A DNA stretch of 64,000 nt from Desulfarculaceae bacterium (GTDB lineage: Bacteria > Desulfobacterota > Desulfarculia > Desulfarculales > Desulfarculaceae). The stretch covers positions 712,870-776,869 of the forward strand of contig JAHLKT010000002.1 of NCBI GenBank assembly GCA_020444545.1. Direction: 5' to 3'. Positions 7,010-22,986 of this stretch are shown one piece after another. The position numbers were made by a program, and so were the translations under genes. The number at the start of each line of letters is the position of its first letter. Position 1 is the first letter of the stretch. Below the pieces are notes generated by a model, which saw only the letters and a program-made list of their open reading frames with translations, was not told the DNA's origin and searched no databases.

Positions 7010-8347
7010 ATGGTCGCGGGAATAATTCTGGCTTCCGGCCTCTCCACCCGTTTCGGCTCCGACAAGTTGACCGCGCCCCTGGCGGGCAGGCCCCTGGCCC
7101 ATTGGGCCATCGAGGCGGCGCTGTCCTCCAGCCTGGGTCAGATAGTCGTAGTCACCCGCCCCGAGCTGGCCGAGGGCCTGGCTAGTGCTTTCCCCGCCGC
7201 GCGCGTGGTGGTCAACCAGAACGCGGTGCGCGGCCAGGCGGGCTCCCTACGCCTGGGCCTAGCGGCTGTCGAGCCCGAGGCCTCCCACGCCCTTTTCTTG
7301 CTGGCCGACCAACCCTTGATCACTCCCGCCTTGATCGACAGTTTCGTGGCCGCCGCCACCACCGGTCAGGAGCTGGCCGCCCTGGCCGGGGATGAACGAC
7401 TAATGCCCCCCACCCTATTCAGCCGCGAGCACTTCGCCGCTCTGATGCAGGCTCATGGCGACCAGGGAGGCCGCCAGGTGCTGGCCGCGCACCAGGAAGA
7501 GGTGTTGGCCCTGCCGCCCAACTTCCCCCTGGCAGGCATGGATGTGGACCTGCCCCGCGATCTGGGCCGAGCCGAGCTGTCCTTGCAGAGCGGCCTGCAC
7601 CGCGCCCTGGGCCTGGGCCCCCGTGAGCTGGTGAGCGTGTGCGGCGCTGGCGGCAAGACCAGCCTGGTCCACGCCCTGGCCAGCGAGGCGACCTTGGATG
7701 GGCGAGCGGTGCTGGTGGCCACCACCACCAAAGTCTTCGTGCCCGCCGGACGCCTACTGGTGGAGCAGGATGCCGGGGCCATGCTTTCCACGGCGCTAGA
7801 CCGCTGCCTGCCTGGCTGGGTGCTCAATTTGGCGGCCGATCGCCGGGTGGTGCACGGCGCGTCCAAGCTCATCGGCCTGGAGCCAGAGCTGGTAGACCGG
7901 CTGTGGCAGGCGGAAGCGGCGCCCCTGATCTTGGTGGAGGCGGATGGCGCGCGCAAGCTGTCCCTCAAGGCGCCGCGCGCCCACGAGCCGGTGGTGCCGG
8001 CGGCCAGCAGCGTGGTGGTGGGAGTCATGGGCCTGAGCGCCTTGGGCAAGCCGGCGGACGAGGAACACGTCTACGGCTTGGCCGAGTTCTTGGGCATCAC
8101 CCAGGCTCGCGGCGGCGAGGCCATCGCGCCGGAGCACCTGGCCGCCCTGGCCCTGCATGAAAACGGCCTTTTCAAGAACGCCCCGTCCGGAGCCCGCAAG
8201 ATCGTCTTTTTGAATCAGTGCGACGCGCCGGGCTGCGGCCATGCCGGACGCAAAACGGCTGAGCTGATCAAGCAAAAGGATTCTTCGCTAAGGATCGTTC
8301 TGGCCTCCCTGGAGTCAGGAATGGCCGAGGTTCTGCACCAGGGCTAG
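7010..8347 (+). CDS. MocA-YqeC fusion: molybdopterin cytidylyltransferase-like plus selenium-hydroxylase accessory protein
   Basis: This 445-residue fusion has two parts. Residues 1-190 are a MobA/MocA-like nucleotidyltransferase (N-terminal 'IILASGLSTRFGSDKL', 'LLADQPLITPAL'), which would make the cytosine dinucleotide form of the molybdenum cofactor. Residues 200-445 match YqeC, the putative accessory protein of selenium-dependent molybdenum hydroxylases ('CGAGGKTSLVHALASE', 'VATTTKVF', 'LVEADGARKLSLKAPRAHEP'). Both activities serve xanthine-dehydrogenase-family enzymes, and a three-subunit enzyme of that family is encoded convergently at 10720-14302. The stop overlaps that of the neighbouring opposite gene in a CTAG. 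The likely role is maturation of the molybdenum hydroxylase, possibly with inorganic selenium. Confidence 0.85.
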   Translation: MVAGIILASGLSTRFGSDKLTAPLAGRPLAHWAIEAALSSSLGQIVVVTRPELAEGLASAFPAARVVVNQNAVRGQAGSLRLGLAAVEPEASHALFLLADQPLITPALIDSFVAAATTGQELAALAGDERLMPPTLFSREHFAALMQAHGDQGGRQVLAAHQEEVLALPPNFPLAGMDVDLPRDLGRAELSLQSGLHRALGLGPRELVSVCGAGGKTSLVHALASEATLDGRAVLVATTTKVFVPAGRLLVEQDAGAMLSTALDRCLPGWVLNLAADRRVVHGASKLIGLEPELVDRLWQAEAAPLILVEADGARKLSLKAPRAHEPVVPAASSVVVGVMGLSALGKPADEEHVYGLAEFLGITQARGGEAIAPEHLAALALHENGLFKNAPSGARKIVFLNQCDAPGCGHAGRKTAELIKQKDSSLRIVLASLESGMAEVLHQG

Positions 8348-9228
8348 GCGGCCAGCAAACGTCCGGGGGGTGGGGATGCCTGCCAGTCCAGGCGGCGGGT
8401 GCGGTCCAAGAGCAGGGCGTCCCCCTGCACCATCACCACGCAACCGGCGATAAGCTCGCGGCCGTGTAAGGCCTGGGCGCGCACCCGCGCCCCTTGTAGG
8501 GCTTGGGACCGTTGCGCCTCGCTTAGCCGCTCCACCCCAGTGGTTATGGCCTGCTCTCCCAAGCCGCACTCAGGATCGAGAGTAGAAGCGGGCGAGGTCC
8601 GAGCCGCGTCCTGGGCCAGGGCCGCGTTGCCCAGGGCGGTGGCAGCCGCATCGGCCAGGGCCGCGCTGGAGGCCCAGGCGGTGGCCAGGTCGGCAACGCC
8701 CGATGACAGGCTGCGCCCCTGCCACCCGCTGGTGGCCACGCCGCCCACGCCGTCCGAGGCGCTCAGGCGCAAACGGCCCAGCAATGATACGGGCTCCCCG
8801 TCATCAGCCGAAGTAGGCCGCAGGCCCACGCTGAGGCTCTGGCCCGGCCCCAGGCGCAGGGCCACGTCGCCGCCGTTGTTGACCACCACCTTGTCCGCGC
8901 CCAGGGCCAAGGCCGCATCGGCCACTTGGTCGGCCACCGCGCCGGCCACGGCGGCCAGAGGGGTCAGGTTCTGGTCCACCGCGCGGCAAGCATCCACCGC
9001 GCGGGCCACCACCTCGGGCAGGGGCCGTCCCTCGGGCAGGTCGCGCACCCGGCGGCGCATGTAGTCTTGAAAATCGGAAAGCACGGCCAGACAGCGCAGG
9101 GCCACCCGGGCCGCCTGGGCGGCCATCACCGGGCGGGGCTCGCCGCTGGCCCACGCGGATATGCTCAGGGTCATGGGGCCCCAGTCCACCAGGACCAGGT
9201 CGGGCCGGATTATTTGGACCGGTTCCAA
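8344..9228 (-). CDS. UPF0280 family protein (ApbE-related)
   Basis: About 294 residues. The core 'GPMTLSISAWASG', 'AAVAGAVADQVADAAL' and 'VVNNGGDVALRL' match the UPF0280 family, which is related to the FAD:protein FMN transferase ApbE. The open frame extends further upstream inside the reductase gene. I chose the TTG at 9228, behind 'aagga' and overlapping the reductase stop by 19 nt, because the upstream part does not look like protein; an internal start is possible. It is the last gene of the operon, directly after hnr. Because the E. barkeri Hnr carries covalent flavin, this protein is a candidate flavin-attachment factor; that is inference. Its stop overlaps the MocA-YqeC stop. Confidence 0.75.
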   Translation of the reverse strand: MEPVQIIRPDLVLVDWGPMTLSISAWASGEPRPVMAAQAARVALRCLAVLSDFQDYMRRRVRDLPEGRPLPEVVARAVDACRAVDQNLTPLAAVAGAVADQVADAALALGADKVVVNNGGDVALRLGPGQSLSVGLRPTSADDGEPVSLLGRLRLSASDGVGGVATSGWQGRSLSSGVADLATAWASSAALADAAATALGNAALAQDAARTSPASTLDPECGLGEQAITTGVERLSEAQRSQALQGARVRAQALHGRELIAGCVVMVQGDALLLDRTRRLDWQASPPPGRLLAA

Positions 9229-10733
9229 GGCACGGGTTCCTTGGCGTCGAATGGCTTGACCGCCTGCATGTGGCCGCCCATGGCCTCGTAGTCGCTCAGG
9301 CGCATGGTGTACTCCACCGGGGCCACCGTGGCCGGGGTGGGCACCCAAGTGAAGGCCCCGGGCATGACCCGTTCCACGTCCACGTAGAAGGTTATGCCCC
9401 CGCCGGGCAAGACGAACACCGGCGCGCCGCCGCAGGTGAGCACCGCCTGGGACGCGTGCACCGCCCGGGTCAGGCGCAATGGGTAGCGGGTGACGCCCGC
9501 GCGGGCCGAGCCGCCCGCCCCGCCCACGTACACCGCCGAAACGCGGCTCTCCTGGCAGGTCTCGGCGATTGCCGCCACCGCCGCGCTCGCCGCCTCGCTA
9601 AGCTCCATGGGCTGATACACCCCGTCGTCGCCCAGCACGAACATGGCCGCGTTCTGGCCGGTGGTCTCGGTGATGAGCAGGGTGGAGCCTGGCGCGGTTT
9701 TGCTGGTGTCCACCTTGGCCACTATGTCCAGGGGGTCTTCCAGGTCCGTGCCGCCCCAGCCCTTGCCGTGGGTGCCGAAGTAGCGCCCCGGAGTGGAGCG
9801 CGGGAAGCAGAGGTCCACCCCGCCGGGGGTGAGCCCCAGGCAGCGCCCGGCCGCGTGGTGGGTGAAAAGGCTGGTGATGTGGGCGTCCAGCACGATGACC
9901 TCGTCGGCCGCGTCCTTGAAGAAGGGCGCGAAGAGCCCGGCGCTGGCCGATCCGCAGCCAACCCGCATCTTCTCCACCCGCGCGCCGTCGATCACCGGCG
10001 GCGAGCCCACCTGCACCTCCAGCTTGGCCCCGCCCTTCACCTTGAGCTTTAGCGCCTCGCGGTTGGCTAAGGCCACCACCGCGCGGGCGGCCGCAAAGCC
10101 GTTCTTGCCGGTGAGCCGGTTGACCCCGCCGATGGCCAGCATCTTGGAGCCGTATTCCTCTGTCTCCACCATGCCCACGGTGCGGCCCTCGAACTTCACC
10201 TCCGCGCCCTCGGGCCCCACCTCAAGGTCGGTGTCGATCTTCAGCTTGAGTCCCGAGTAGGACAAGGGCACCTCGGTGACCACGGTCACCACCTCCACGC
10301 CCTCGCGCTGGTGGCTCATGATGTAGGGCGCGGGCACGTAGTCGGGATAGGTGCCCCCCGCGCCTATGGCGGTGATGGTGGGGCGCTCCAGGATGGCCTC
10401 CGGCTCCGGGCCGATGAGGTCGATGACCTCGGCCAGGGTGACCAGGGGGCGGGTGCGTTTCAGCTCGCCGTCCGCATAGGCGTAGCGGCCGCAGGCCCCG
10501 GTGAGGCCGGGAGCGATGGTGCAGCCCACGGGGCAGTGGTCGCAGACCAGCGCGCCGGGCGCGGCGGTCACCTCGTCGATCACCGCGCCCTGGGGGCAGA
10601 CCTTGAGGCAGGTGCGGCACTCCACGCAGGCGTCGTTGATGGCGGCTTTCTTGTCCACCAGGGCCACGGCGGCCACGGGGCAGTCGCGCACGCAGGTGCC
10701 GCAGCCGTTGCAGATTTCCCTATCGATCTTCAT
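9210..10733 (-). CDS. hnr: 6-hydroxynicotinate reductase-like Fe-S flavoprotein
   Basis: This 507-residue protein begins with two ferredoxin-type [4Fe-4S] motifs (C8/11/14/18 and C36/39/42/46). A third Cys group (C64, C67, C71, C81) could hold a [2Fe-2S] cluster. This is exactly the cluster inventory reported for E. barkeri 6-hydroxynicotinate reductase (two [4Fe-4S], one [2Fe-2S], covalent flavin). That enzyme reduces 6-hydroxynicotinate to 1,4,5,6-tetrahydro-6-oxonicotinate with ferredoxin. No classical SGAT flavinylation motif is visible; 'GAGGT' (124-128) is the nearest. The gene overlaps the molybdenum subunit by 14 nt and is followed by the UPF0280 gene. The family call comes from memory of the architecture and from context with enamidase, not from an alignment. 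Confidence 0.75.
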   Translation of the reverse strand: MKIDREICNGCGTCVRDCPVAAVALVDKKAAINDACVECRTCLKVCPQGAVIDEVTAAPGALVCDHCPVGCTIAPGLTGACGRYAYADGELKRTRPLVTLAEVIDLIGPEPEAILERPTITAIGAGGTYPDYVPAPYIMSHQREGVEVVTVVTEVPLSYSGLKLKIDTDLEVGPEGAEVKFEGRTVGMVETEEYGSKMLAIGGVNRLTGKNGFAAARAVVALANREALKLKVKGGAKLEVQVGSPPVIDGARVEKMRVGCGSASAGLFAPFFKDAADEVIVLDAHITSLFTHHAAGRCLGLTPGGVDLCFPRSTPGRYFGTHGKGWGGTDLEDPLDIVAKVDTSKTAPGSTLLITETTGQNAAMFVLGDDGVYQPMELSEAASAAVAAIAETCQESRVSAVYVGGAGGSARAGVTRYPLRLTRAVHASQAVLTCGGAPVFVLPGGGITFYVDVERVMPGAFTWVPTPATVAPVEYTMRLSDYEAMGGHMQAVKPFDAKEPVPWNRSK

Positions 10734-12966
10734 GATGCTTACCTCGGCTGCTCAGGGCCTCCATGACCCGCTCCAGGGACAGGGGCAGATGGTGCAGTGG
10801 GGTGCCCACCGCCTGGCTAACCGCCGAGGCCACCGCCGGGGCGGTGGGTATCAAGGCGGGCTCGCCCACCCCCTTGGCCCCGAAAGGCCCGGTAGGCTCG
10901 GGCTCCTCCACGATCAGCGGAGTGATGGCCGGGGCGTCTGCCGCGGTGGGGATGTGGTACTGCTGCAAGTTGCCTTCGCGGCCGGGGTGGTGCTCCTCCA
11001 TGAGGGCCATGCCCACGCCCATGACCACGCCGCCGCAGATCTGGCCCAGCACCGCGCGGGGGTTGATGGCCCGCCCCACGTCATGGGCCGCGGCCACTTC
11101 CTTGACCCGCACCATGCCGCTGGCTGGGTCCACCGCCACCTTGGCGCATTGGGCCGCGTAGGCGTAGGCCGCATAGGGGCGGCCCTGGCCGGTCTCCGGG
11201 TCCAGGGGGGTGAAGTTGGGGTCAAAGGCGCCCTCCCCCCGCGCCGCGCGGCCCAAATGGCGGGCCACCTCGGCGGGCTCCACGCTGCGTCCGTCGGCGG
11301 CCTGGAGCAGGCCGTCCTTTAGCTCAATCTCTAAATGGCGCTCGCCCAGCATCTCGCGGGCGCCCTCCACCAGGCTCATGACCAGGTTGTCGGCCGCGGC
11401 CAGGGCCGCGTTTCCCGAGATGTAGGTCTGGCGGCTGGCCGAGGTGGCTCCCGCGTTGGTGGTGCGCTTGGTGTCGCCCCGGCAGACCTTGACCCGGGCC
11501 GCGTCCAGGCCCAGGCGGCCGGCCGCGATCTGCTTGAGCGCCGTGTCGCTGCCTTGGCCGATGTCCGCCGCGCCGGTGAAGAGGGTAACGGTGTTGTCCG
11601 CGCCCCATTCCATCTGGGCGGTGGAAGGATTGGACACGCCGGTGTTGCCGATGCCGTAGAACATGGCTCCCAGGCCCACGCCGCCCAGGCCGTCACTATC
11701 GGCCAGCTCCTCGCGCCAGGCCTTGTAGATGGGCTCGATGCGCTCCAGGCAGGCCACCAGCCCCACCCCGGCATTGAGCTTCTGGCCGGTGCAGGTGCGC
11801 ATCCCCGCGCGCAGAGCGTTGATCTTGCGCATCTCCAACGGGTCAATCCCCAACTTGGCGGCCAGGGCGTCCATCTGGCCCTCGTGGGCCAGAGCCACCT
11901 GGGGGCAGCCGAAGCCGCGCATGGCGCCGTAGAAGCCGTTGTTGGTGTAGGCCATGCGGCAGGCCACGTCCACGTTGGGCACGTTGTAGGGACCGGTGGC
12001 GTGCACCGCCGCGCGCATGCACACGGCCAGGCCGTAAGAGGCAAAGGCTCCGGTGTCGCCCAGGATGCGCGCCTTGAGCGCGGTGAGGCGGCCCTGCTCG
12101 TCGGCTCCGGTGATGTAGTGCATTTGCAAGGGGTGGCGCTTGGCCGTGGCCAGGAAGGACTCCTCGCGGGTGAAGCGCATGCACACCGAGCGCACCAGAT
12201 GCCAGGCGGCCAGGGCCAAGAAAGGCTGCACCGAGAGGTCCAGCTTGCCGCCGAAGCCGCCGCCAGTCTCGGCCTGGATCACCCGTATCTTTTCCTCGGG
12301 CACGCCCAAAAAGCGGGCCAGGTCGGCCTGGTCGTAATGCGGGTTCTGGGTGCAGGCCTCGACCACCAGCTGGCCGTCCTGCCACCAGGCGCGGCCGCCC
12401 TCCACCTCCAGGGCGGCGTGCTCCAGTGGGCTGGTGGAATACACCGCCTCCACGGTAACCGCGCTGGCGGCCAGAGCCGCGTCCACGTCGCCCCGCTTGA
12501 TCAAGTTTTCCCGGAGCAGGTTGCCGCCGGGATGATCAGGATGCACCAGGGGCGCGCCGGGGGCCAGGGCCTCTTCGGGGTCAAAGACGCCGGGCAGCTT
12601 GGCCAGCTCCACCCGCACCGCGCGGGCCCCGGCCAGGGCCTGGGCGCGGGTGCTGGCCGCCACCAGGGCCACGGCCTGGCCCTTCTGGCGCACCGTGTCC
12701 ACGGCCAGAAACTCCTGGTCCCGGCTTACCGCGATGATGCCCAGGTCGTGCTGGCCGGGCACGTCGGCCGCGGTGAACACCCGCACCACCCCGGGCATGG
12801 CCAGGGCGGCGGCGGGGTCGATGTTCACGATGCGAGCCGGAGCCGCCTCCGCCCGCACGCAGGCCAGGTGCAGATCCTCGGATCGGCCCTGGTCCCAACC
12901 GAAACGGGTCTCCCCGCGCACCCGGGCGTAGACCCCGCTATGAGCCATGCTCTGCCCCACGCTCAT
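10720..12966 (-). CDS. Molybdenum hydroxylase, large molybdopterin-binding subunit (nicotinate dehydrogenase-like)
   Basis: This 748-residue catalytic subunit belongs to the xanthine dehydrogenase family. Visible motifs are 'TGGGFGGKLDLSVQPFLA', 'NNGFYGAMRGFGCPQVALA', 'FTGAADIGQGSDTALKQIA' and the C-terminal 'GAKGVGEPALIPTAPAVASA', whose Glu (about 702) is the family's catalytic base. Such enzymes hydroxylate N-heterocycles with water as oxygen donor. The start is the ATG at 12966, which overlaps the FAD-subunit stop as ATGA; upstream in-frame sequence is not protein-like. In E. barkeri nicotinate dehydrogenase this subunit is split into NdhL and NdhM; here it is one chain. Neighbouring hnr, enamidase and YqeC point to nicotinate or a similar N-heterocycle and to possible selenium dependence. 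Confidence 0.88.
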   Translation of the reverse strand: MSVGQSMAHSGVYARVRGETRFGWDQGRSEDLHLACVRAEAAPARIVNIDPAAALAMPGVVRVFTAADVPGQHDLGIIAVSRDQEFLAVDTVRQKGQAVALVAASTRAQALAGARAVRVELAKLPGVFDPEEALAPGAPLVHPDHPGGNLLRENLIKRGDVDAALAASAVTVEAVYSTSPLEHAALEVEGGRAWWQDGQLVVEACTQNPHYDQADLARFLGVPEEKIRVIQAETGGGFGGKLDLSVQPFLALAAWHLVRSVCMRFTREESFLATAKRHPLQMHYITGADEQGRLTALKARILGDTGAFASYGLAVCMRAAVHATGPYNVPNVDVACRMAYTNNGFYGAMRGFGCPQVALAHEGQMDALAAKLGIDPLEMRKINALRAGMRTCTGQKLNAGVGLVACLERIEPIYKAWREELADSDGLGGVGLGAMFYGIGNTGVSNPSTAQMEWGADNTVTLFTGAADIGQGSDTALKQIAAGRLGLDAARVKVCRGDTKRTTNAGATSASRQTYISGNAALAAADNLVMSLVEGAREMLGERHLEIELKDGLLQAADGRSVEPAEVARHLGRAARGEGAFDPNFTPLDPETGQGRPYAAYAYAAQCAKVAVDPASGMVRVKEVAAAHDVGRAINPRAVLGQICGGVVMGVGMALMEEHHPGREGNLQQYHIPTAADAPAITPLIVEEPEPTGPFGAKGVGEPALIPTAPAVASAVSQAVGTPLHHLPLSLERVMEALSSRGKHHEDR

Positions 12967-13823
12967 GACGCGGCCTCCAGACCGGACCAGGCCATGGACA
13001 GCGCCTGGGCGGTGCAGCGGGTGATGGCCGGGACCTTGTAGTCGGCCGAAGAACGCCAACCGCACACGTCGGTGAAGTGGCTGGCCGCGATCTCGCCGGC
13101 GTGTTGCCACAAATCCGGTCCCGGCTGGCCGGCGTGCAAAAGATTCTCCACGTCGATCATGCGGTGGGGGCTGGGGAAGCAGGAGCCCAGCACCACACGG
13201 GGGTCTTCCAGGCTGCGGTCCAGGGCCACGGCCAGGTTGAGCCGGGCCACGGCCACCTCGTGACGGCGCCCCACCTTTAGGAAGGCCTGGCCGTCCGGGT
13301 CGGGCGGCAGGGCCAGGCGGAAGCCCAGGATGATCTCGTCCTCGGCCAGGGTGGTCTGGTTGGGCGCGGTGATCAGCTCGTGCAAGGGGCAGAAGCGCTG
13401 TCCCCGGGGAGAGGCGATCTCCGCGCTGGCCTCCAGGGCGGTCAGGGCAGTTAGCCCGTCGGCCGCGGGCGAGGCGTTGGCCACGTTGCCGCCGATGGTG
13501 GCCGTACTGCGCACCTGCACCGAGCCCACCGAGGCGGCGGCCCTGGCCAGCAGGGGCAGGCGCCGGGCCACGGCCGGGTTGCTCTCCAAAAAGCGAAAGG
13601 TGAGGCCCGCGCCAAGATAGGGCTCGTCGCCGTCCAGGCGGATGCGTTGCAGCTCGGGCAAACGGGTGAGGTCCACCAGAGTGGCGGGCAGGTCTCCGCC
13701 TTGCAGGCGGGCCTTGCGCAGGGCCACCATCAGGTCGGTGCCCCCGGCCAGAGACTTGGCGTCACCCCGGCTCAGCGCTTCCAGGGCCTCGTCCAGCGAG
13801 GCGGGCTGGACAAAGCGGCTCAT
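12963..13823 (-). CDS. Molybdenum hydroxylase, FAD-binding subunit
   Basis: This 286-residue medium subunit belongs to the xanthine dehydrogenase/CO dehydrogenase family. The FAD-binding motifs 'SLAGGTDLMVALR' (about 31-43) and 'RSTATIGGNVANASPAADG' (about 110-128) are intact, and a CO-dehydrogenase flavoprotein C-terminal domain follows. Its ATG at 13823 overlaps the stop of the 2Fe-2S subunit (ATGA), and its own stop overlaps the start of the large subunit in the same way. This shows tight translational coupling of the three subunits. It passes electrons from the Fe-S subunit to an acceptor, NAD(P)+ or ferredoxin. Confidence 0.92.
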   Translation of the reverse strand: MSRFVQPASLDEALEALSRGDAKSLAGGTDLMVALRKARLQGGDLPATLVDLTRLPELQRIRLDGDEPYLGAGLTFRFLESNPAVARRLPLLARAAASVGSVQVRSTATIGGNVANASPAADGLTALTALEASAEIASPRGQRFCPLHELITAPNQTTLAEDEIILGFRLALPPDPDGQAFLKVGRRHEVAVARLNLAVALDRSLEDPRVVLGSCFPSPHRMIDVENLLHAGQPGPDLWQHAGEIAASHFTDVCGWRSSADYKVPAITRCTAQALSMAWSGLEAAS

Positions 13824-14302
13824 GATTCGCCGCCCTCCCCCCGCATGTGCTTGGCCCCCCGGCGCACCGCGCGCACGATGTCGTGGTACCCGGTGCAGCG
13901 GCACAGGTTGCCCGACAGGGCGCGGCGAATCTCGGGGTCGGCGGGGTCGGGGTTGTGGCTTACCAAATCAAGGGAAGAGAGGATCATGCCGGGGGTGCAA
14001 AAGCCGCACTGCACCGCGCCGGTCTCCACGAAGGCCTCCTGCATGGGGTGCAGCTCGCCGCCCCGGGCCAGGCCCTCCACCGTGGTGATCTCGCGTCCGG
14101 CGGCCTGCCGGGCGGCGGTTAGGCAGGAGTTGACCGCCTCGCCGTCGATGAGCACGGTGCAGGCTCCGCACTCGCCCACCCCGCAGCCCTCCTTGACGCC
14201 CAGCATCTCCAGGCGCTCGCGCAGGACCTCCAAAAGGGTGGCTTCGCCGGGGACATCCTCCAGGCTTACCGGGGAACCGTTGAGAGTGAACTCGAGGGGC
14301 AT
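13820..14302 (-). CDS. Molybdenum hydroxylase, 2x[2Fe-2S] subunit
   Basis: This 160-residue small subunit carries both cluster motifs of the family: plant-ferredoxin-like C40-x4-C45-x2-C48-x11-C60 ('GCGVGECGACTV') and the helical C99-x2-C102 ... C134-x1-C136 ('CGFCTPGM', 'GNLCRCTGYH'). Length and spacing are typical. It is the first enzyme gene after the TRAP genes in the operon and carries electrons from the molybdenum site to the FAD subunit. Confidence 0.95.
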   Translation of the reverse strand: MPLEFTLNGSPVSLEDVPGEATLLEVLRERLEMLGVKEGCGVGECGACTVLIDGEAVNSCLTAARQAAGREITTVEGLARGGELHPMQEAFVETGAVQCGFCTPGMILSSLDLVSHNPDPADPEIRRALSGNLCRCTGYHDIVRAVRRGAKHMRGEGGES

Positions 14303-14315
14303 AGCCAGATTCCCG

Positions 14316-15626
14316 TCACCGGTTCATCATGCCCGGCAAAAGAGTGGCAATGCCGGGGATGACCGTGATCAAGAAGGCCACGAAGAAAATGGCCAACAGG
14401 AAGGGCGCGACACCCTTGAAAATCGTTTCCAGCTTGGTGCTGGGGTCCACGCCCGCCACGGTGAAGATGTTCAACCCCATGGGCGGCGTTATGAGCCCCG
14501 CCTCCATCATCAGCACCGCGATGACCCCGAACCAGATGGGGTCGAAATGCAGGGCGGTGATGATGGGGTAGATCACCGGCAGGGTGAGCACCATCATGGA
14601 GATGGCGTCCAGGAAGCAGCCCAGGAAAAGGTAGATCAGGATGATCACCGTGTGGATCAGGTAGGGCGAGACCTCCAGGCCGGTGGCCCAGGTGGCCACC
14701 TGGGTGGGGATGGTGGACAGGGCCAGGAAATAGGAGAACACGTTGGCGCCCGCCACCAAAAACAGCACCATCACCGAGATGCGCACCGACTCGAACAGGG
14801 CGCTGATCAGCACCTGCCAGCTAAGGCGTCTTTTCACCAGGGCCACCAGGAACAGCACCGTGGCGCCCACCGCGCCGGCCTCGGTGGGGGTGAAAAAGCC
14901 CGCGTAGATGCCGCCCATGACGATGAAGAACAGGGCCAGCGGCTCCCACACGCCCCTGAGGGAAGCGAACTTGTCGGCCCAGCTAACCCGCTCCGGGCTG
15001 GCCGGGGCGGCCGCGGGGATCAACTTCACCCAGGCGACCACTATGCCCACGTAGGCGAAGGCGAGCAAAAACCCCGGCATGATGCCCGCCACCAGGAGCT
15101 TGCCGATGGACTGCTCGGTGAGCATTCCATAGACCACGAAACCGATGCTGGGCGGAATGAGAAAGCCCAGGGTGCCGCCCGCGGCCACCGCGCCGGTGGC
15201 CAGGCTGGCGCGGTAGTTGAAGCGCTTCATTTCCGGCAGGGCCACGGTGCCCATGGTGGCCGCGGTGGCCACCGAGGAGCCCGACACCGCCGCGAAACCG
15301 CCGCAGGCGCCGATGGTGGCGATGGCCAGGCCGCCGGGCAAGCGGCGCATCCATTTGTCGAAGGTGCCGTAAAGCTCGCTGGTGATGCCCGAGCTGGAGG
15401 CGAAGCCGCCCATGACGATGAACAAGGGGATCACCGTGTAGGGATAGAAGGAGGCCACCTCCCACACCGTGCTGGCCAGCTTGGGCAGCGCGGCGTCCAT
15501 GGAAGCCAGGTAGCTGATGCCGGAGAAGCCTACCAGCATCAGGGCGAAGGCGATGGGCATACCTAGGAACAGGAGGACGAATACGGCGATGGTGCCGAGA
15601 ACTCCTACGGTGATGGGATCCAACAT
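14316..15626 (-). CDS. dctM: TRAP transporter large permease subunit DctM
   Basis: This 436-residue integral membrane protein has about 12 hydrophobic segments. Typical DctM motifs are 'FLGMPIAFALMLVGF' at the N-terminus, 'ATGAVAAGGTLGFLIPPSI', 'FFTPTEAGAVGA' and 'MEAGLITPPMGLNIF'. It catalyses ion-coupled uptake of an organic anion. Its ATG overlaps the dctQ stop by one base (TAATG). The molybdenum hydroxylase genes start 14 nt downstream, so substrate import and first oxidation are probably on one transcript. Nicotinate would fit, but the substrate is inferred from context alone. Confidence 0.93.
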   Translation of the reverse strand: MLDPITVGVLGTIAVFVLLFLGMPIAFALMLVGFSGISYLASMDAALPKLASTVWEVASFYPYTVIPLFIVMGGFASSSGITSELYGTFDKWMRRLPGGLAIATIGACGGFAAVSGSSVATAATMGTVALPEMKRFNYRASLATGAVAAGGTLGFLIPPSIGFVVYGMLTEQSIGKLLVAGIMPGFLLAFAYVGIVVAWVKLIPAAAPASPERVSWADKFASLRGVWEPLALFFIVMGGIYAGFFTPTEAGAVGATVLFLVALVKRRLSWQVLISALFESVRISVMVLFLVAGANVFSYFLALSTIPTQVATWATGLEVSPYLIHTVIILIYLFLGCFLDAISMMVLTLPVIYPIITALHFDPIWFGVIAVLMMEAGLITPPMGLNIFTVAGVDPSTKLETIFKGVAPFLLAIFFVAFLITVIPGIATLLPGMMNR

Positions 15627-16114
15627 TAGTTACCTGCCAACTCGCGCACGGTGTCCACCAGATCGAAGATCAGCTCCAGGCAGAGGAAGAGCGCTCCCAC
15701 GGCCACCAGCATCCGGAAGGGAGCCTGGGGCACGCGCAGCATGTCCGAGACGGACACCTCTTCCATGGCCACCGCGTAGCCTTGCCAACAGAGCATGGCG
15801 ATGATGAAGATGCTCAGGAGATTGGTTAATAGGTCGAGGCTCAGGGAGACCTTTTTGGGCAGGCGGTCGGTGAACATGGTCACCCGCACGTGGCCCTTTG
15901 CCTGTTGGGTGTAGGCCAGACCCAACAGGATGAACACCGAGAGCATGTAGGAGGACATTTCCAGGGTGCCGGGGATGGGCCGGGACCAAACGCCCCGGCC
16001 CACCACCTCGGCAGCCGTCCATAACATCATGGGGATGAGCAGGAACATGCCCACATAGGTCAACCCGCGAGTTACCTTTTGAATGAAGGCCTTGGTTTTT
16101 TCGTACGCTTCCAT
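15626..16114 (-). CDS. dctQ: TRAP transporter small permease subunit DctQ
   Basis: This 162-residue protein has four transmembrane helices and the family segments 'VGRGVWSRPIPGTLEMSSYML' (broken here as VGRGVW and PIPGTLEMSSYM) and 'KGHVRVTMFTDRLP'. It forms the membrane complex with DctM. It lies between dctP and dctM in the usual order, with a 38-nt gap to dctP and a one-base overlap with dctM. Confidence 0.92.
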   Translation of the reverse strand: MEAYEKTKAFIQKVTRGLTYVGMFLLIPMMLWTAAEVVGRGVWSRPIPGTLEMSSYMLSVFILLGLAYTQQAKGHVRVTMFTDRLPKKVSLSLDLLTNLLSIFIIAMLCWQGYAVAMEEVSVSDMLRVPQAPFRMLVAVGALFLCLELIFDLVDTVRELAGN

Positions 16115-16152: not shown

Positions 16153-17226
16153 TTACTTCTTCTTCTCGGTATTCCACTCGGGCGGGAAGGCCACGCAAGT
16201 GGAACCGGCCTGCTGGACCGCCTGGTTGTACATCATCACCGCTTCCTTGGCGGGCTTGCCTTGCTTCTCCAGCTCGGCCACCCACTGGCGGGTAACCTCC
16301 TGGAAGCGGGCGAACCAACGCTGCTCCTCCTTGGGAGGCAGGTCGTAGACCTTCACGCCCTTGGCCTTGATCTCCTTCATCATCTTGGCATAGGTCTTTT
16401 TGTCCAGACCGTGGGTGTGGGCGAAGGGGTTGCCCACCACCTCCATGATGATGGCCTGCAGGTCCTTGGGAGTGCGCTTCCAGGACTTCTCGTTCATGAT
16501 CACGCCCTCGGACACGCAGCCGAAGGTCGCCTTGACGCCGTACTTGGCCACTTCATAGAGCTTGAAGGCCAGCACCAGCGGAGGACAGGTGACCAGACCG
16601 TCGATGGTGCCGGTCTCCATGGCCAGGTACACGTCGCCCAGGGGCATGAACACGGGCTGGGCGCCCAGGGACTTGATGTAGTTGGTCTGCATGCCGCCGG
16701 GGGTGCGGATCTTGAGGCCCTTCAGGTCCTCCAGGGTGTGCACCGGCTTGGTGGTCCACAGGAAGGCCTGGATGCAGCCGTTGAGTTCCAGCACCTTGAC
16801 GCCCTTGAACTCCTTCTCCAGGGCCTTCTTGTAAACCTGGTTGCCGATGTCGGTGGCCAGGTCCTTGCCGTCGACCCAGGCGGCCATGGAGAGCACGTCG
16901 GTCATGGGGAAGCGGCCGGGGGTCCAGGTGGCGGTGAAGTAGCCCATGTCCGACAGGCCGTTTTTCACGATGTCGAAGTGCTCGGGGCCCTTGCCCAGGG
17001 CGCCGCCGGCATAGAGGGTGTAGGTGATGCGGCCGTCGCTGCGCTTCTTGAGCTCCTCCAGCATGGGAATCCACACCGTCTTGACCTCGCGGCTCATGGG
17101 CGGATGCCAGGTGGAGAATTTCAGGTGAATGCTTTTCTTCTCATCGGCCGCCTTGGCGTTGGTTACGCCGGCGAAGCAAATAAGCAACGCCGCCATAAAG
17201 CTGAGCAGCCACGCAAATTTTTTCAT
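16153..17226 (-). CDS. dctP: TRAP transporter periplasmic solute-binding protein DctP
   Basis: This 357-residue exported protein has a Sec signal (MKKFAWLL...CFAGVTNAKA, cleavage near residue 27). The mature part shows the DctP fold motifs 'LKGLKIRTPGGMQTNYIKSL', with the conserved Arg that binds the ligand carboxylate, and 'GDVYLAMETGTIDGLVTC'. Carboxylate recognition by that Arg suits nicotinate, but the ligand is not decided by sequence. An excellent ribosome site (ggaggg) precedes the ATG. The gene is first in the catabolic operon and its promoter carries a palindromic operator. Confidence 0.93.
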   Translation of the reverse strand: MKKFAWLLSFMAALLICFAGVTNAKAADEKKSIHLKFSTWHPPMSREVKTVWIPMLEELKKRSDGRITYTLYAGGALGKGPEHFDIVKNGLSDMGYFTATWTPGRFPMTDVLSMAAWVDGKDLATDIGNQVYKKALEKEFKGVKVLELNGCIQAFLWTTKPVHTLEDLKGLKIRTPGGMQTNYIKSLGAQPVFMPLGDVYLAMETGTIDGLVTCPPLVLAFKLYEVAKYGVKATFGCVSEGVIMNEKSWKRTPKDLQAIIMEVVGNPFAHTHGLDKKTYAKMMKEIKAKGVKVYDLPPKEEQRWFARFQEVTRQWVAELEKQGKPAKEAVMMYNQAVQQAGSTCVAFPPEWNTEKKK

Positions 17227-18746: not shown

Positions 18747-18910
18747 GAGTTCACACCTTGGCTGCGGTTGATGAAGAGCGGTGCGGGCCCCGGCGCTTTC
18801 GCTTGGTGCGCGCGCCGCGCCTTATCAGTATATTTTAGCCAGGCCGAGGCCCATCTTGGGCTCATTTCTTGCCGGCCGGCCATTCCGCTAATTCCTCACT
18901 CTCTTTACTC

Positions 18911-18939
18911 TTGACCTGCCCACATTTAAGCGATATTTT
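18911..18939 (+). promoter_or_regulatory. Sigma70-type promoter of the regulator-enamidase operon
   Basis: TTGACC (18911-18916), 17-nt spacer, TATTTT (18934-18939). The start site expected about 7 nt downstream falls in the palindromic operator at 18944-18960. It would drive the regulator, enamidase, PF06684 and aldehyde dehydrogenase genes. Confidence 0.6.
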
Positions 18940-18943
18940 ATTT

Positions 18944-18960
18944 TTTAGATTATATTTAAA
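18944..18960. promoter_or_regulatory. Second copy of the 17-bp palindromic operator
   Basis: TTTAGATTATATTTAAA, 16 of 17 bases identical to the dctP operator at 17428-17444. An overlapping dyad AGATT...AATCT (18947-18963) extends it. It sits at the predicted start site of the regulator's own operon, as expected for autoregulation. Confidence 0.65.
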
Positions 18961-19009
18961 TCTCGGCACGCGTCAAGCTGTTTCGCCGGATTTGGGAGAA
19001 GAGGGGCTC

Positions 19010-19555
19010 TTGGAAAGTTTGGGGAGTAAAATAAAGCAGATGCGTCTAGCCCAAAAGCTGACGCTGAAGCAGGTGGCCGACAAGGCCGACTGCACTGCTT
19101 CGTATTTATCTCAGGTGGAGCACGACAAGGCTTCGCCCTCCATCGCCTCGCTGAAACGCATCGCCGGGGTGCTGGGGGCGCGCATCGTGGATTTTTTCGC
19201 CGACGAATCCGAGCACGACCCGGTGGTGATGGACCCTTCCCAATGGGTGCGGGTTAGCCTGCCCCGCTGGAAGGCGGACATCAAGCAGATGGTGGCCATG
19301 GTCAAACATCGCCACATGCAGCCCTTCTTCACCGTCATTCAACCCGGGGGCGGCACCCGGGAGGATTATCACCACGTGGGCGAGGAATTCGGCCTGGTGC
19401 TGGAGGGTGAGCTCACCCTGCGCCTGGGCGAGGAGATACACCTGGTGCCCGCTGGTTCGTCTTTTTATTACTCATCCAGCCAGCCCCACGCCTGGACCAA
19501 CGAGGGCGACGAGCCCTGCCGGGTGGTTTGGGTGGTGACCCCGCCCAGCTGGTAG
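19010..19555 (+). CDS. XRE-family transcriptional regulator with C-terminal cupin sensor
   Basis: A 181-residue regulator. Residues 4-60 are a Cro/CI-type helix-turn-helix ('LTLKQVADKADCTASYLSQ', 'SPSIASLKRIAGVLG'). Residues 105-180 are a cupin ('HHVGEEFGLVLEGELTLRLG', 'VPAGSSFYYSSSQPHAWTN') that should bind the effector. I chose the TTG at 19010 behind 'ggagaagagggg', because the domain starts there and the operator and promoter lie upstream; the open frame reaches 18869 but would run through them. It heads the enamidase operon and likely binds the palindromes at 18944 and 17428. Confidence 0.88.
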   Translation: MESLGSKIKQMRLAQKLTLKQVADKADCTASYLSQVEHDKASPSIASLKRIAGVLGARIVDFFADESEHDPVVMDPSQWVRVSLPRWKADIKQMVAMVKHRHMQPFFTVIQPGGGTREDYHHVGEEFGLVLEGELTLRLGEEIHLVPAGSSFYYSSSQPHAWTNEGDEPCRVVWVVTPPSW

Positions 19556-19586: not shown

Positions 19587-20744
19587 ATGAGCAGCGTATT
19601 GATCAAAAACGTGGGCCTGATGCTCAGTGGCCTGGTGGACGAACCCATCCTGGCGGCGGACAGCGTTCTCATCGCCGACGGCCTCATCCAGAAAATCGGC
19701 TCCGGCCTGGAAGCCCCCGAGGGCGCCACGGTCATCGACGCGGGCGGCTCGGCCCTAACACCGGGCCTCATCGATAGTCACTGCCACGTGGTCCTGGGCG
19801 ACTGGACCCCGCGCCAGCAGATGCAAAACTTCCTGGACTCCTCGCTGCACGGCGGGGTGACCACCTCCATCAGCGCGGGCGAGGTGCACCTGCCCGGCCG
19901 CCCCAAGGACCCCCTGGGAACCAAGTGCCTGGCCATCCTGGCCGCCAAGAGCTGGGGCACGGTGCGCCCCGGCGGCATGAAGGTACTGGGCGGCTCGCTA
20001 ATCCTGGAAAAGGGCCTCACCGAGGCTGATATCGAAGAATGCTACCAGGCGGGCGTGCGGGTCGTCGGCGAGGTCGGCTTGGGCTCGGTCAAGGAGCCGC
20101 CCGAGGCACCGGAGATGGTTCAGTGGGCCAAGAAGCGCGGCATGACCGTGATGATGCACACCGGCGGCACCTCCATCCCCGGCTCGTCCGTGGTGGGCGC
20201 CGAGCAGATCATCGCGGTAAAGCCCTCGGTGGCCAGCCACATCAACGGCGGCCCCACCGCGGTCAGCCTGGAAGGGGCCAAGGCCATCATCGATGAGAGC
20301 GACGCGGCTATCGAGATCGTGCAGTGCGGCAACATGCGCCGCGCCGCCGAGGTGGCCCAGTACATCGACGATACCAAGCAGTGGGGCCGGGTGATCTTCG
20401 GCAACGACGCCCCCTCCGGCACCGGCGTGGTCACCCTGGGCATCCTTCGCAACATGGCCCTGGTGGCCAGCCTGGGCGGCGTGGCCCCCGAGCTGACCGT
20501 GGCCATGGCCTCGGGCAACACCGCCGCGCTCTACGGCCTCAACCGGGGCGTCATCGCCGAGGGCCGCGAAGCGGACCTGGTGCTCATGGACACCCCCATA
20601 GGCTCGCCGGGCAAGGACGTCCTGGAGGCCCTGGCCGAGGGCGACACCCCCGGCGTTTCCCTCATCCTGATCGACGGCAAGGTTGTGGTCACCAAGAGCC
20701 GCAACACCCCGCCGCCGGTGCGCGCCGCCAAGGTGGCCGCTTAG
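19587..20744 (+). CDS. ena: Enamidase-like amidohydrolase (ring-opening)
   Basis: This 385-residue amidohydrolase-superfamily enzyme closely follows the E. barkeri enamidase that I recall: 'LTPGLIDSHCHVVLGDW' (metal ligands H65, H67), 'LHGGVTTSISAGEVHLPGRP', 'GEVGLGSVKEPPEAPEM', 'HTGGTSIPGSSVV', 'SHINGGPTAVS', 'FGNDAPSGTG' and the C-terminal 'VVTKSRNTPPPVRAAK'. The known enzyme hydrolyses 1,4,5,6-tetrahydro-6-oxonicotinate to ammonia and (S)-2-formylglutarate with an Fe-Zn centre. The start ATG has ggaggg upstream and lies 31 nt after the regulator. Together with hnr and the molybdenum hydroxylase it gives the first three steps of anaerobic nicotinate breakdown. Confidence 0.88.
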   Translation: MSSVLIKNVGLMLSGLVDEPILAADSVLIADGLIQKIGSGLEAPEGATVIDAGGSALTPGLIDSHCHVVLGDWTPRQQMQNFLDSSLHGGVTTSISAGEVHLPGRPKDPLGTKCLAILAAKSWGTVRPGGMKVLGGSLILEKGLTEADIEECYQAGVRVVGEVGLGSVKEPPEAPEMVQWAKKRGMTVMMHTGGTSIPGSSVVGAEQIIAVKPSVASHINGGPTAVSLEGAKAIIDESDAAIEIVQCGNMRRAAEVAQYIDDTKQWGRVIFGNDAPSGTGVVTLGILRNMALVASLGGVAPELTVAMASGNTAALYGLNRGVIAEGREADLVLMDTPIGSPGKDVLEALAEGDTPGVSLILIDGKVVVTKSRNTPPPVRAAKVAA

Positions 20745-20773: not shown

Positions 20774-21352
20774 ATGCAGATTCGTAAGCTGGTCACCATC
20801 GTGGAAGAGACCCTGAACGAGGCGGGCAAGGCCATCGAGCCCCCCACCCGCAAAGCCGCGGCCATCGCGGTCATCGCCAATCCCTTTGCCGGCGGCTACA
20901 CCGAGGACCTGAGCGAGCTGATGGACATCGGCGAGGAGCTGGGTGGGATGCTGGGCGACAAGGCCCGCGACGCTCTGGGCATCGCCCCCGAGGAGTGCGA
21001 GAGCTACGGCAAGGCGGCCATCGTGGGCCTGAACGGCGAGCTGGAGCACGGCGGCGCCATCCTGCACCCCAAGCTGGGCGCCCCCTTCCGCAAGGCCCTG
21101 GGCCGGGGCCTGGCCCTGATCCCCTCGGTGAAAAAACGCGGCCCGGCCGGCTGCACCATCGACGTTCCCCTGAACCACAAGGACGCGGCCTTCATCCGCT
21201 CCCACTTCGACGGCATGACCATCAGCCTGGAAGATGCGCCCATGGCCGACGAGATCCTGGTGGCCCTGGTGGTCACCGATTCCGGACGTCCCCTGCCCCG
21301 CATCGGCGGCCTGACCAAGGAAGACGCCAAGTACGAGGACGGCCTTCGTTAA
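20774..21352 (+). CDS. PF06684 ('amino acid synthesis', DUF1185) family protein
   Basis: A 192-residue cytoplasmic protein ('MQIRKLVTIVEETLNEAGK', 'IAVIANPFAGGYTEDLSELMDIGEEL' split here as IAVIANPFAG and YTEDLSELMDIGEE, 'CTIDVPLNHKDAAFIRSH'). It matches a family whose name says nothing reliable about function. The ATG at 20774 has a ggagg site 8 nt upstream; the longer open frame is an artefact of enamidase coding sequence. It sits between enamidase and the aldehyde dehydrogenase, so it likely acts on the ring-opened product, its tautomer or the released amide/ammonia. I cannot assign a reaction. No counterpart is known to me in the E. barkeri nicotinate cluster. Confidence 0.75.
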   Translation: MQIRKLVTIVEETLNEAGKAIEPPTRKAAAIAVIANPFAGGYTEDLSELMDIGEELGGMLGDKARDALGIAPEECESYGKAAIVGLNGELEHGGAILHPKLGAPFRKALGRGLALIPSVKKRGPAGCTIDVPLNHKDAAFIRSHFDGMTISLEDAPMADEILVALVVTDSGRPLPRIGGLTKEDAKYEDGLR

Positions 21353-21406: not shown

Positions 21407-22897
21407 ATGGCCATGTTGCCTGAAGTCAAGAAGCACTACGGACGCCTGAAGCTGCTTATCGGCGGCGAGTGGGTGGAGTCCAAGTCCGATATCATCAACG
21501 AGACCACCAACCCGGCCACCGGCGAGGTGATCGCCGAGTTCCCCACCGCCACCCAGGAAGAAGCCCGCGCGGCGGTGCAGGCCGCGGCCGACGCCTTCGA
21601 TACCCTGAAGAACATCCCCCTGCGCGAGCGCGCCCGGATGCTCTTTGACATGCGCCAGATCTACGACCGCGAGGCCGACACCCTGAGCCGCGTGCTGAGC
21701 CAGGACCACGGCCGCACCTACAAGGAGGCCGCCGGTTCGGTGCGCCGTTGCATCGAGAACATCGAGTCCGCCTGCGCGGCGGCCTACGGCCTGGTCTCGC
21801 GCAACGAGCACCTGGACAACCTGGCCAACGGCATCGACATGTGGCTGACCTGGGAGCCGTTGGGGCCCTTCCTCATCGTGACTCCGGGCAACATCCCCAT
21901 GCACGCCTGGAGCTCCTTTGTGCCCTACGCCCTGGCCTCCGGCTGCCCGGTGGTGGTGAGCCCCTCGCGCCAGGACCCGGTGGCCGCGGAATACATGAGC
22001 AAGGTGGCCCTGGAGGCCGGTTTCCCGGCAGGCGCCATCAACCTGATCCACGGCGGCCGCGACGTTAACTCCTTCATCCTGGAGCAGCCGGAGATCGAGG
22101 GCATCGGCTTTATCGGCTCCACCAGCGCCGGTCTGGACCTGTTTGCCCAATGCGGCAAGCTGGGCAAGACTTCGAGCCTCAACGGCAACGGCAAGAACAC
22201 CGTGTTGATCATGCCCGACGCCGACCTGGACGCCTGCCCCGGCTACGTGCGCCAGGGCTGCTTCGGCATGACCGGCCAGCGCTGCCTGGGCTCGGACAAC
22301 GTGGTGATCATCGGCGACCAGAAGCGCTACGACGAGGTGAAGCAGGCCCTGGTGGCCAACGCCTCGGCCATGAAGCTGGGCTACGGCCTGGACGAGAGCG
22401 TGACCATGGGCCCCTACGCCACCCCCGGCGGCCGCGACAAGGTCATCGCCTGGGTCGAGAAGGGCCTGGGCGAGGGCGCCAAGATGGTCCTGGACGGCCG
22501 CACCATGCTGCCCGCCGACTATCCCGACGGCTATTTCATGGGCCCCACCCTCTTGGAAGACGCCGACATTGACATGGAAATCTGCAAGGAAGAAGCCTTC
22601 GGCGCGGTGGCGGCCCTCATCCGGGCTGAGAGCCTGGAGCAGGTCATCGGCTGGATCAACTCCAAGACCGACCTGGGCCACAGCGCCTGCATCATGACCG
22701 CCAGCGGAGTGAACGCGCGCAAGTTCGCCCGTGAGGTCAACGTGGGCAACGTGGGCATCAACGTGGGCGTGCCCCAGCCCTACGCCTTCTTCCCCCTGGG
22801 CTCCAAGCGCAAGTCCTTCCTGGGCGCCGCCAAGAGCCGCATGGCCTCCATGCGTCTGTTCCTGGATGAGCGCACCGTGACCGCGCGCTGGGTTTAA
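21407..22897 (+). CDS. CoA-acylating aldehyde dehydrogenase, methylmalonate-semialdehyde dehydrogenase type
   Basis: A 496-residue aldehyde dehydrogenase closest in pattern to MmsA: catalytic C293 in 'FGMTGQRCLGSDN', C-terminal 'NVGINVGVPQPYAFFPLGS'. The 'ELGGK' segment of hydrolytic family members reads 'SLNGNGKN', so the usual general-base Glu is missing, as in CoA-acylating members. MmsA-type enzymes turn a 2-formyl acid into an acyl-CoA with loss of CO2. Applied to 2-formylglutarate this would give glutaryl-CoA, CO2 and NADH. It is the last gene of the enamidase operon and a strong terminator follows. Confidence 0.82.
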   Translation: MAMLPEVKKHYGRLKLLIGGEWVESKSDIINETTNPATGEVIAEFPTATQEEARAAVQAAADAFDTLKNIPLRERARMLFDMRQIYDREADTLSRVLSQDHGRTYKEAAGSVRRCIENIESACAAAYGLVSRNEHLDNLANGIDMWLTWEPLGPFLIVTPGNIPMHAWSSFVPYALASGCPVVVSPSRQDPVAAEYMSKVALEAGFPAGAINLIHGGRDVNSFILEQPEIEGIGFIGSTSAGLDLFAQCGKLGKTSSLNGNGKNTVLIMPDADLDACPGYVRQGCFGMTGQRCLGSDNVVIIGDQKRYDEVKQALVANASAMKLGYGLDESVTMGPYATPGGRDKVIAWVEKGLGEGAKMVLDGRTMLPADYPDGYFMGPTLLEDADIDMEICKEEAFGAVAALIRAESLEQVIGWINSKTDLGHSACIMTASGVNARKFAREVNVGNVGINVGVPQPYAFFPLGSKRKSFLGAAKSRMASMRLFLDERTVTARWV

Positions 22898-22949
22898 GCC
22901 CCGCACGACAATCGCCTTGGCGACAAGGCGAATTCCCCTCCCAACCCCT

Positions 22950-22986
22950 GGGGCCTTTCCGTTCGCGGAAGGGCCCCATTTATTTT
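22950..22986 (+). terminator. Rho-independent terminator of the enamidase operon
   Basis: 12-bp stem GGGGCCTTTCCG / CGGAAGGGCCCC with one G-T pair and a TTCG loop, followed by ATTTATTTT. It starts 53 nt after the aldehyde dehydrogenase stop. Confidence 0.85.

Follow-up and report, generated by a model that had tools for sequence, protein, structure and literature searches.

The window, that is, the whole 64,000-nucleotide stretch of DNA analysed, comes from a sulfate-reducer-like bacterium and carries a gene cluster of two divergent halves. The transporter, molybdenum hydroxylase, 6-hydroxynicotinate reductase (Hnr) and UPF0280 genes of the upper pathway lie on the minus strand, and the enamidase operon lies on the plus strand. 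The features of the cluster are as follows:

7010-8347, plus strand: MocA-like/YqeC fusion for selenium-molybdenum cofactor maturation (TIGR03172, 174.6 bits, cut-off 73.05)
8344-9348, minus strand: UPF0280-family protein, a constant neighbour of Hnr (start uncertain)
9210-10733, minus strand: Hnr (51% identity over 499 columns to the Eubacterium aggregans Hnr of locus L202)
10720-13110, minus strand: Mo subunit of a nicotinate-dehydrogenase-like hydroxylase (profile matches; true start further in)
12963-13904, minus strand: FAD subunit of the same hydroxylase (profile matches; true start further in)
13820-14302, minus strand: 2Fe-2S subunit of the same hydroxylase (XdhC-type, 193.6 bits)
14316-15626, minus strand: TRAP transporter DctM (profile match)
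15626-16114, minus strand: TRAP transporter DctQ (profile match)
16153-17226, minus strand: DctP-like binding protein (named by position)
18869-19555, plus strand: HTH-cupin regulator (PF01381, PF07883)
18911-18939, plus strand: sigma-70-like promoter match for the operon (9/12, consensus match only)
19587-20744, plus strand: enamidase (E. barkeri enamidase 2vun matched full length, E 2.7e-141)
20774-21352, plus strand: AA_synth (PF06684) protein between enamidase and dehydrogenase (first ATG at 20774; 241.9 bits)
21407-22897, plus strand: MmsA-like dehydrogenase of clade I (open frame of 496 aa, ATG start)
22949-22978, plus strand: terminator-like hairpin 3′ of the dehydrogenase (13 pairs, 9 of them G-C, T-rich tail; pattern match only)

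The plus-strand genes follow the order HTH-cupin regulator, enamidase, AA_synth and dehydrogenase, and the dehydrogenase is the last gene before the hairpin. A second species of the same genus (L038) has a 93% identical dehydrogenase copy in an unchanged gene order. The earlier note's description of this gene as the last one of the enamidase operon is confirmed. From how far the homology extends in L038, the real start of the HTH-cupin regulator is probably at about 18995. The structures nearest to the AA_synth protein are the uncharacterised 2qtp and 3byq.

As Alhapel et al. reportedly described in 2006, E. barkeri ferments nicotinate through Ndh, Hnr and Ena and then through Hgd, Hmd and Mgm, on to propionate and pyruvate. 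The product of its enamidase is 2-formylglutarate. Since an Ndh-like molybdenum hydroxylase, Hnr and enamidase are found in one cluster of the window, its upper nicotinate pathway would be that of E. barkeri, down to 2-formylglutarate; the AA_synth and UPF0280 companions are common to both systems as well. A Sulfitobacter orthologue of the window's Hnr carries the annotation 6-hydroxynicotinate reductase. The YqeC part behind the MocA-like domain, adjoining the cluster, points to a selenium-dependent molybdenum hydroxylase. To compare gene neighbourhoods, 36 enamidase loci with flanks of up to 8 kb were taken from 35 genomes besides that of the window, one of which had two. It is most improbable that the cluster serves a related N-heterocycle instead of nicotinate, with an aldehyde acid other than 2-formylglutarate as intermediate. 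The hydroxylase substrate is a predicted one and TRAP or ABC transporters of unknown specificity occur in the clusters, which leaves room for such a reading, but both Hnr and enamidase are E. barkeri-type orthologues and 7 of the 36 fetched loci include a nicotinamidase-like gene (for instance L052:5801-6523; one of the seven was profile-scanned). The presence of these nicotinamidase-like genes inside the clusters suggests nicotinamide as the outside substrate.

Companion genes were followed in a scan with an Hnr alignment, in which the 80 named loci are the best 80 of 585. Within these 80, a UPF0280 protein lies beside Hnr in 75, and a member of this family matches 2o34. The Hnr of E. barkeri has a covalent flavin, so the UPF0280 protein may have a flavin-attaching role. 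AA_synth was present in 65 of the same best 80 loci, together with either lower pathway, and several Proteobacteria have it in two diverged forms. Its action probably precedes the branching into the lower pathways. Two archaeal MAGs, L196 (Hecatellales) and L201 (Archaeoglobi), carry Hnr and UPF0280, the former with a clade I dehydrogenase and the latter with enamidase, a gene content that makes archaeal nicotinate breakdown possible. On a Thermomicrobium roseum plasmid (L161), an enamidase-like gene, AA_synth, a Mo hydroxylase subunit, a ring-hydroxylating dioxygenase and two enoyl-CoA hydratase genes were observed, and no gene in this stretch was annotated as Hnr; the cluster perhaps belongs to a different ring pathway.

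The dehydrogenase matched Aldedh in Pfam (354 bits), and its top NCBIfam model was TIGR01722, the methylmalonate semialdehyde dehydrogenase (MMSDH) family of MmsA, IolA and ALDH6A1. The score of 343.8 bits falls under the cut-off of 448.5, so the protein was not filed as an MMSDH member and is, on sequence grounds, an outlying MmsA-like family. A paralogue in the same genome (L003) reached 522.3 bits, above the cut-off. The top PDB sequence matches, 5tjr and 1t90, are both MMSDH. When an AlphaFold model built from 32 sequences (mean pLDDT 90.7) was compared using Foldseek, ranks 1-20 of the PDB matches were all MMSDH with a query TM-score of 0.93-0.95, in agreement with a predicted MMSDH fold. 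The alignment to B. subtilis IolA (1t90) revealed that Cys293 is kept, preceded by Arg292 (GxRC), and that Arg114 of the GRGIEN region, the second substrate-carboxylate Arg of MMSDH, is retained. The equivalent of this Arg pair is reported to hold, in B. subtilis IolA, the substrate carboxylate that is later lost. Asn259 occupies the place of Glu268, a position that is Glu in two of the genome's ordinary ALDHs, L001 and L002. The enzyme is thus of the MmsA type with the general-base Glu missing, just as the earlier note had read it. In MMSDH, the absence of this Glu lets CoA take the place of water. The window protein shares with the MmsA family the predicted fold, the catalytic Cys, both carboxylate Arg residues, the missing Glu268 and the expected oxidation, decarboxylation and CoA transfer. 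It differs from that family in its 30-41% identity to the compared MmsA-like rows, its sub-cut-off score, the linkage of its gene to enamidase and a predicted substrate that is larger, with carboxyethyl in place of H or methyl.

The distribution of the gene was determined in 198 genomes drawn evenly from the phylum, 36 of which have a strong enamidase match (E of 1e-100 or lower). Relatives with at least 55% identity, which constitute clade I, were found in 23 of the 36 enamidase genomes and in 0 of the 162 others (Fisher 3e-21). Among the 36 fetched loci, many of which end at contig ends, 14 had a clade I gene nearby and 6 a distant MmsA-like gene (33-39% identity). The distant genes are clade II, present in 8 genomes; a clade II query gave matches of at least 59% in these same 8 genomes only, all with enamidase. 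Either clade was represented in 31 of the 36 enamidase genomes and in 0 of the 162 others (Fisher 2e-31), and never both in one genome. The 5 enamidase genomes without a match to either clade are G035, whose enamidase (47%) has no Hnr nearby, G113, G114 and G115, which are 76-80% complete, and G175, which consists of 950 contigs.

In a first tree, calculated without the fragments L102, L046 and L066, the 24 rows of clade I and the 8 of clade II each formed a fully supported group. The window's clade is 33-37% identical to clade II, whose scores against TIGR01722 are mixed (469.0 and 440.9 bits). Arg114 and Arg292 are conserved across both clades. Residues invariant in clade I but uncommon in other rows were then checked in clade II. 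His425 was present in 24/24 clade I and 8/8 clade II rows, with Asn in 23/23 other MmsA-like rows; Arg478 was equally invariant in the two clades (24/24 and 8/8) and occurred in 0/23 of the others. Position 426 is Ser or Thr in both clades (Ser426 in the window protein) and Gly, Ala or Met in the other MmsA-like rows. All rows added from named genomes, including the archaeal one, have His425, Ser/Thr426 and Arg478, some of these rows being incomplete or duplicates of a single gene. Alignment with other ALDHs would place positions 425, 426 and 478 close to the nicotinamide ring and at the entrance of the substrate tunnel, a location that would suit a second substrate carboxylate. In clade I a loop is also remodelled, PGNIP-H-AWSS replacing PFNFP-M-x-P-x-W, and clade II lacks this remodelling, so that the pocket chemistry may differ between the clades. 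That two MmsA lineages without close kinship had acquired His425 and Arg478 by convergence was considered and dropped once more rows put both clades together. In this second tree (60 rows, also without L196, L169, L186, L165, L178, L136, L080 and L141), clades I and II fell on one side of a branch with an SH-aLRT of 92, which is not decisive; common descent appears at least as likely as convergence.

These data bear on whether the dehydrogenase might be an ordinary methylmalonate/malonate semialdehyde dehydrogenase of valine, inositol or beta-alanine breakdown that stands in the operon by chance. Although MMSDH provides the nearest structures and the nearest profile, the gene is confined to enamidase genomes (0/162 others), the protein scores under the MMSDH cut-off that its paralogue L003 exceeds, and it belongs to a separate clade with its own invariant residues. 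We consider this explanation very unlikely.

The earlier note also held that the Hgd, Hmd and Mgm genes of E. barkeri were missing here, and proposed looking for an hgd-mgm cluster elsewhere in the genome. None of the three was found among the genes of the window's cluster. Searches of the window's genome found no Hgd (best match 27% identity), only a B12-binding domain for Mgm (55.6 bits) and no match for Hmd, the latter in a search with no positive control of its own, whose query picks up Hmd at 51-68% identity in other loci. With its own query, Mgm was detected at 65-74% identity in 9 other loci, and among the matches listed for the 198 genomes no Mgm beyond its B12-binding end was found. 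In contrast to E. barkeri, an MmsA-like gene takes the place of Hgd, Hmd and Mgm, none of which was found in the window's genome.

The two kinds of lower pathway also exclude each other among the best 80 of 585 Hnr loci: 10 carried clade I, 4 clade II and 15 Hgd, Hmd or Mgm, and 0 carried both kinds. The other 51 had neither, and they are mostly from Proteobacteria or short contigs; for L203-L241, mostly proteobacterial, neither an MmsA-like gene nor Hgd/Hmd/Mgm was seen within the fetched flanks, and the fetched alphaproteobacterial Hnr loci showed no gene of either clade. Carriers of Hgd among the Bacillota included Desulfosporosinus fructosivorans (L177), a Clostridia MAG (L184) and E. aggregans (L202), their Hgd being closest to 3cky. 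The full set in L184 comprises Hgd, Hmd, an aconitase-like pair, a 620-aa B12 mutase (Mgm) and a PrpF protein. The genomes behind 48 of the 80 named loci were searched for the dehydrogenase. A clade I gene of at least 56% identity was detected in 14 of them, including the cultured Dethiosulfatarculus sandiegensis SPR (63%), which also has Hnr and enamidase, and a Hecatellales archaeon has one at 52%. A clade I gene was absent from all 14 genomes behind Hgd loci, where the single match was 32% identical; one of these genomes, that of a deltaproteobacterium with Hgd, Hmd and Mgm (L172), gave no hit for the window protein at E 1e-70.

If glutaryl-CoA were the product, enzymes for its further use would be expected, and the earlier note had proposed searching the genome for glutaryl-CoA dehydrogenase. 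The window's genome encodes 17 acyl-CoA dehydrogenases. One of them, at C1:504798-505967, is a glutaryl-CoA dehydrogenase with 708.5 bits against the Desulfo-type NCBI model NF045552 (cut-off 470), and directly behind it lies the gene for glutaconyl-CoA decarboxylase A (GcdA; 3gf3, E 1.4e-227). The genome thus has both the non-decarboxylating dehydrogenase and the decarboxylase subunit A of the anaerobic glutaryl-CoA route. The dehydrogenase is an orthologue of the non-decarboxylating enzyme of Desulfococcus multivorans (3mpi, E 9.7e-180), with the difference that here it is predicted to take glutaryl-CoA from nicotinate. These genes are on another contig than the window and could alternatively serve in aromatic-acid breakdown. 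Across the genome sample, GcdA was found in 24/36 enamidase genomes and 30/162 others (4e-8); of the 23 clade I genomes, 17 have it. As a tight enamidase companion, glutaryl-CoA dehydrogenase did not hold up: the 3mpi type at 58% identity or more was present in 10/36 enamidase genomes and 21/162 others, a weak association (p = 0.03). A wider set (28/36 against 44/162) takes in relatives of 44-51% identity, in the majority of which the substrate Arg is missing, as judged from 20 fetched relatives with two closer ones among them. Given that the 3mpi type occurs in 10/36 and that GcdA was not found in 6/23 clade I genomes, the lower pathway is not uniform across carriers.

From this evidence, the dehydrogenase is likely an NAD-dependent, decarboxylating, CoA-acylating 2-formylglutarate dehydrogenase that makes glutaryl-CoA. 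In the proposed reaction, Cys293 would attack the aldehyde of 2-formylglutarate while Arg114 and Arg292 hold its alpha carboxylate, as in MmsA, and His425 and Arg478 would hold the extra distal carboxylate. After hydride transfer to NAD+, the beta-carboxy thioester would lose CO2. In the absence of the general-base Glu, the acyl group would go to CoA instead of being hydrolysed off the enzyme, giving glutaryl-CoA. The non-decarboxylating dehydrogenase would then form glutaconyl-CoA, and glutaconyl-CoA decarboxylase would convert it to crotonyl-CoA. The genomic predictions examined for the earlier note's reading turned out largely favourable to this scheme, as regards enamidase co-occurrence, exclusion from Hgd/Hmd/Mgm loci, MmsA residues and downstream genes.

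The main rival is that CO2 is lost first, spontaneously or through another protein, and that the dehydrogenase oxidises the resulting glutarate semialdehyde to glutaryl-CoA or glutarate. By general chemistry, 2-formyl acids are prone to CO2 loss. In Azorhizobium caulinodans, as Kitts et al. are said to have reported in 1992, nicotinate is converted to glutaryl-CoA and on to crotonyl-CoA by separate decarboxylation, oxidation and CoA transfer. The passage on glutarate in PMC3511419, which cites that work, has THON conversion running via glutarate. Against such an order, Arg114 and Arg292 are kept in both clades, and a semialdehyde devoid of that carboxylate would need neither of them. The AA_synth protein at 20774-21352, the one uncharacterised gene product encoded in between, was weighed as the missing decarboxylase and is an unlikely one, because it is also found in Hgd/Hmd/Mgm loci, where decarboxylation is unwanted. 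On balance, we regard prior loss of CO2 as unlikely, and a decarboxylating 2-formylglutarate dehydrogenase as the preferred reading.

The window and A. caulinodans would share the end point, glutaryl-CoA and crotonyl-CoA, but the three separate steps there correspond to one predicted enzyme here. In the portion of the open-licence literature covered, an MmsA-type enzyme in nicotinate breakdown was not found. The earlier note's statement that it knew of no described pathway with this enzyme at this point has to be narrowed: the single-enzyme step and the protein family of its own, with His425, Ser/Thr426, Arg478 and, in clade I, the PGNIP loop, appear to be new, whereas glutaryl-CoA as an end point of nicotinate breakdown was already published for A. 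caulinodans.

Altogether, it seems fairly probable that these proteins constitute an undescribed family, 2-formylglutarate dehydrogenase (decarboxylating, CoA-acylating), and that Thermodesulfobacteriota, together with at least one lineage of archaea, use it in a third branch of reductive nicotinate degradation, in which vitamin B3 carbon would pass to glutaryl-CoA and glutaconyl-CoA with one NADH made, the thioester conserved and the second carboxylate read by His425 and Arg478. If so, a CoA transferase or ligase would be saved along with the gain of one NADH, and the gap between enamidase and central metabolism would be filled in anaerobes without the B12-dependent 2-methyleneglutarate mutase route. 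A function would be assigned to a set of dehydrogenases whose present names come from distant similarity, and MmsA chemistry would extend to a larger dicarboxylic substrate through a two-residue specificity rule. The turnover of vitamin B3 in sediments would thereby join the lower pathway of benzoate.
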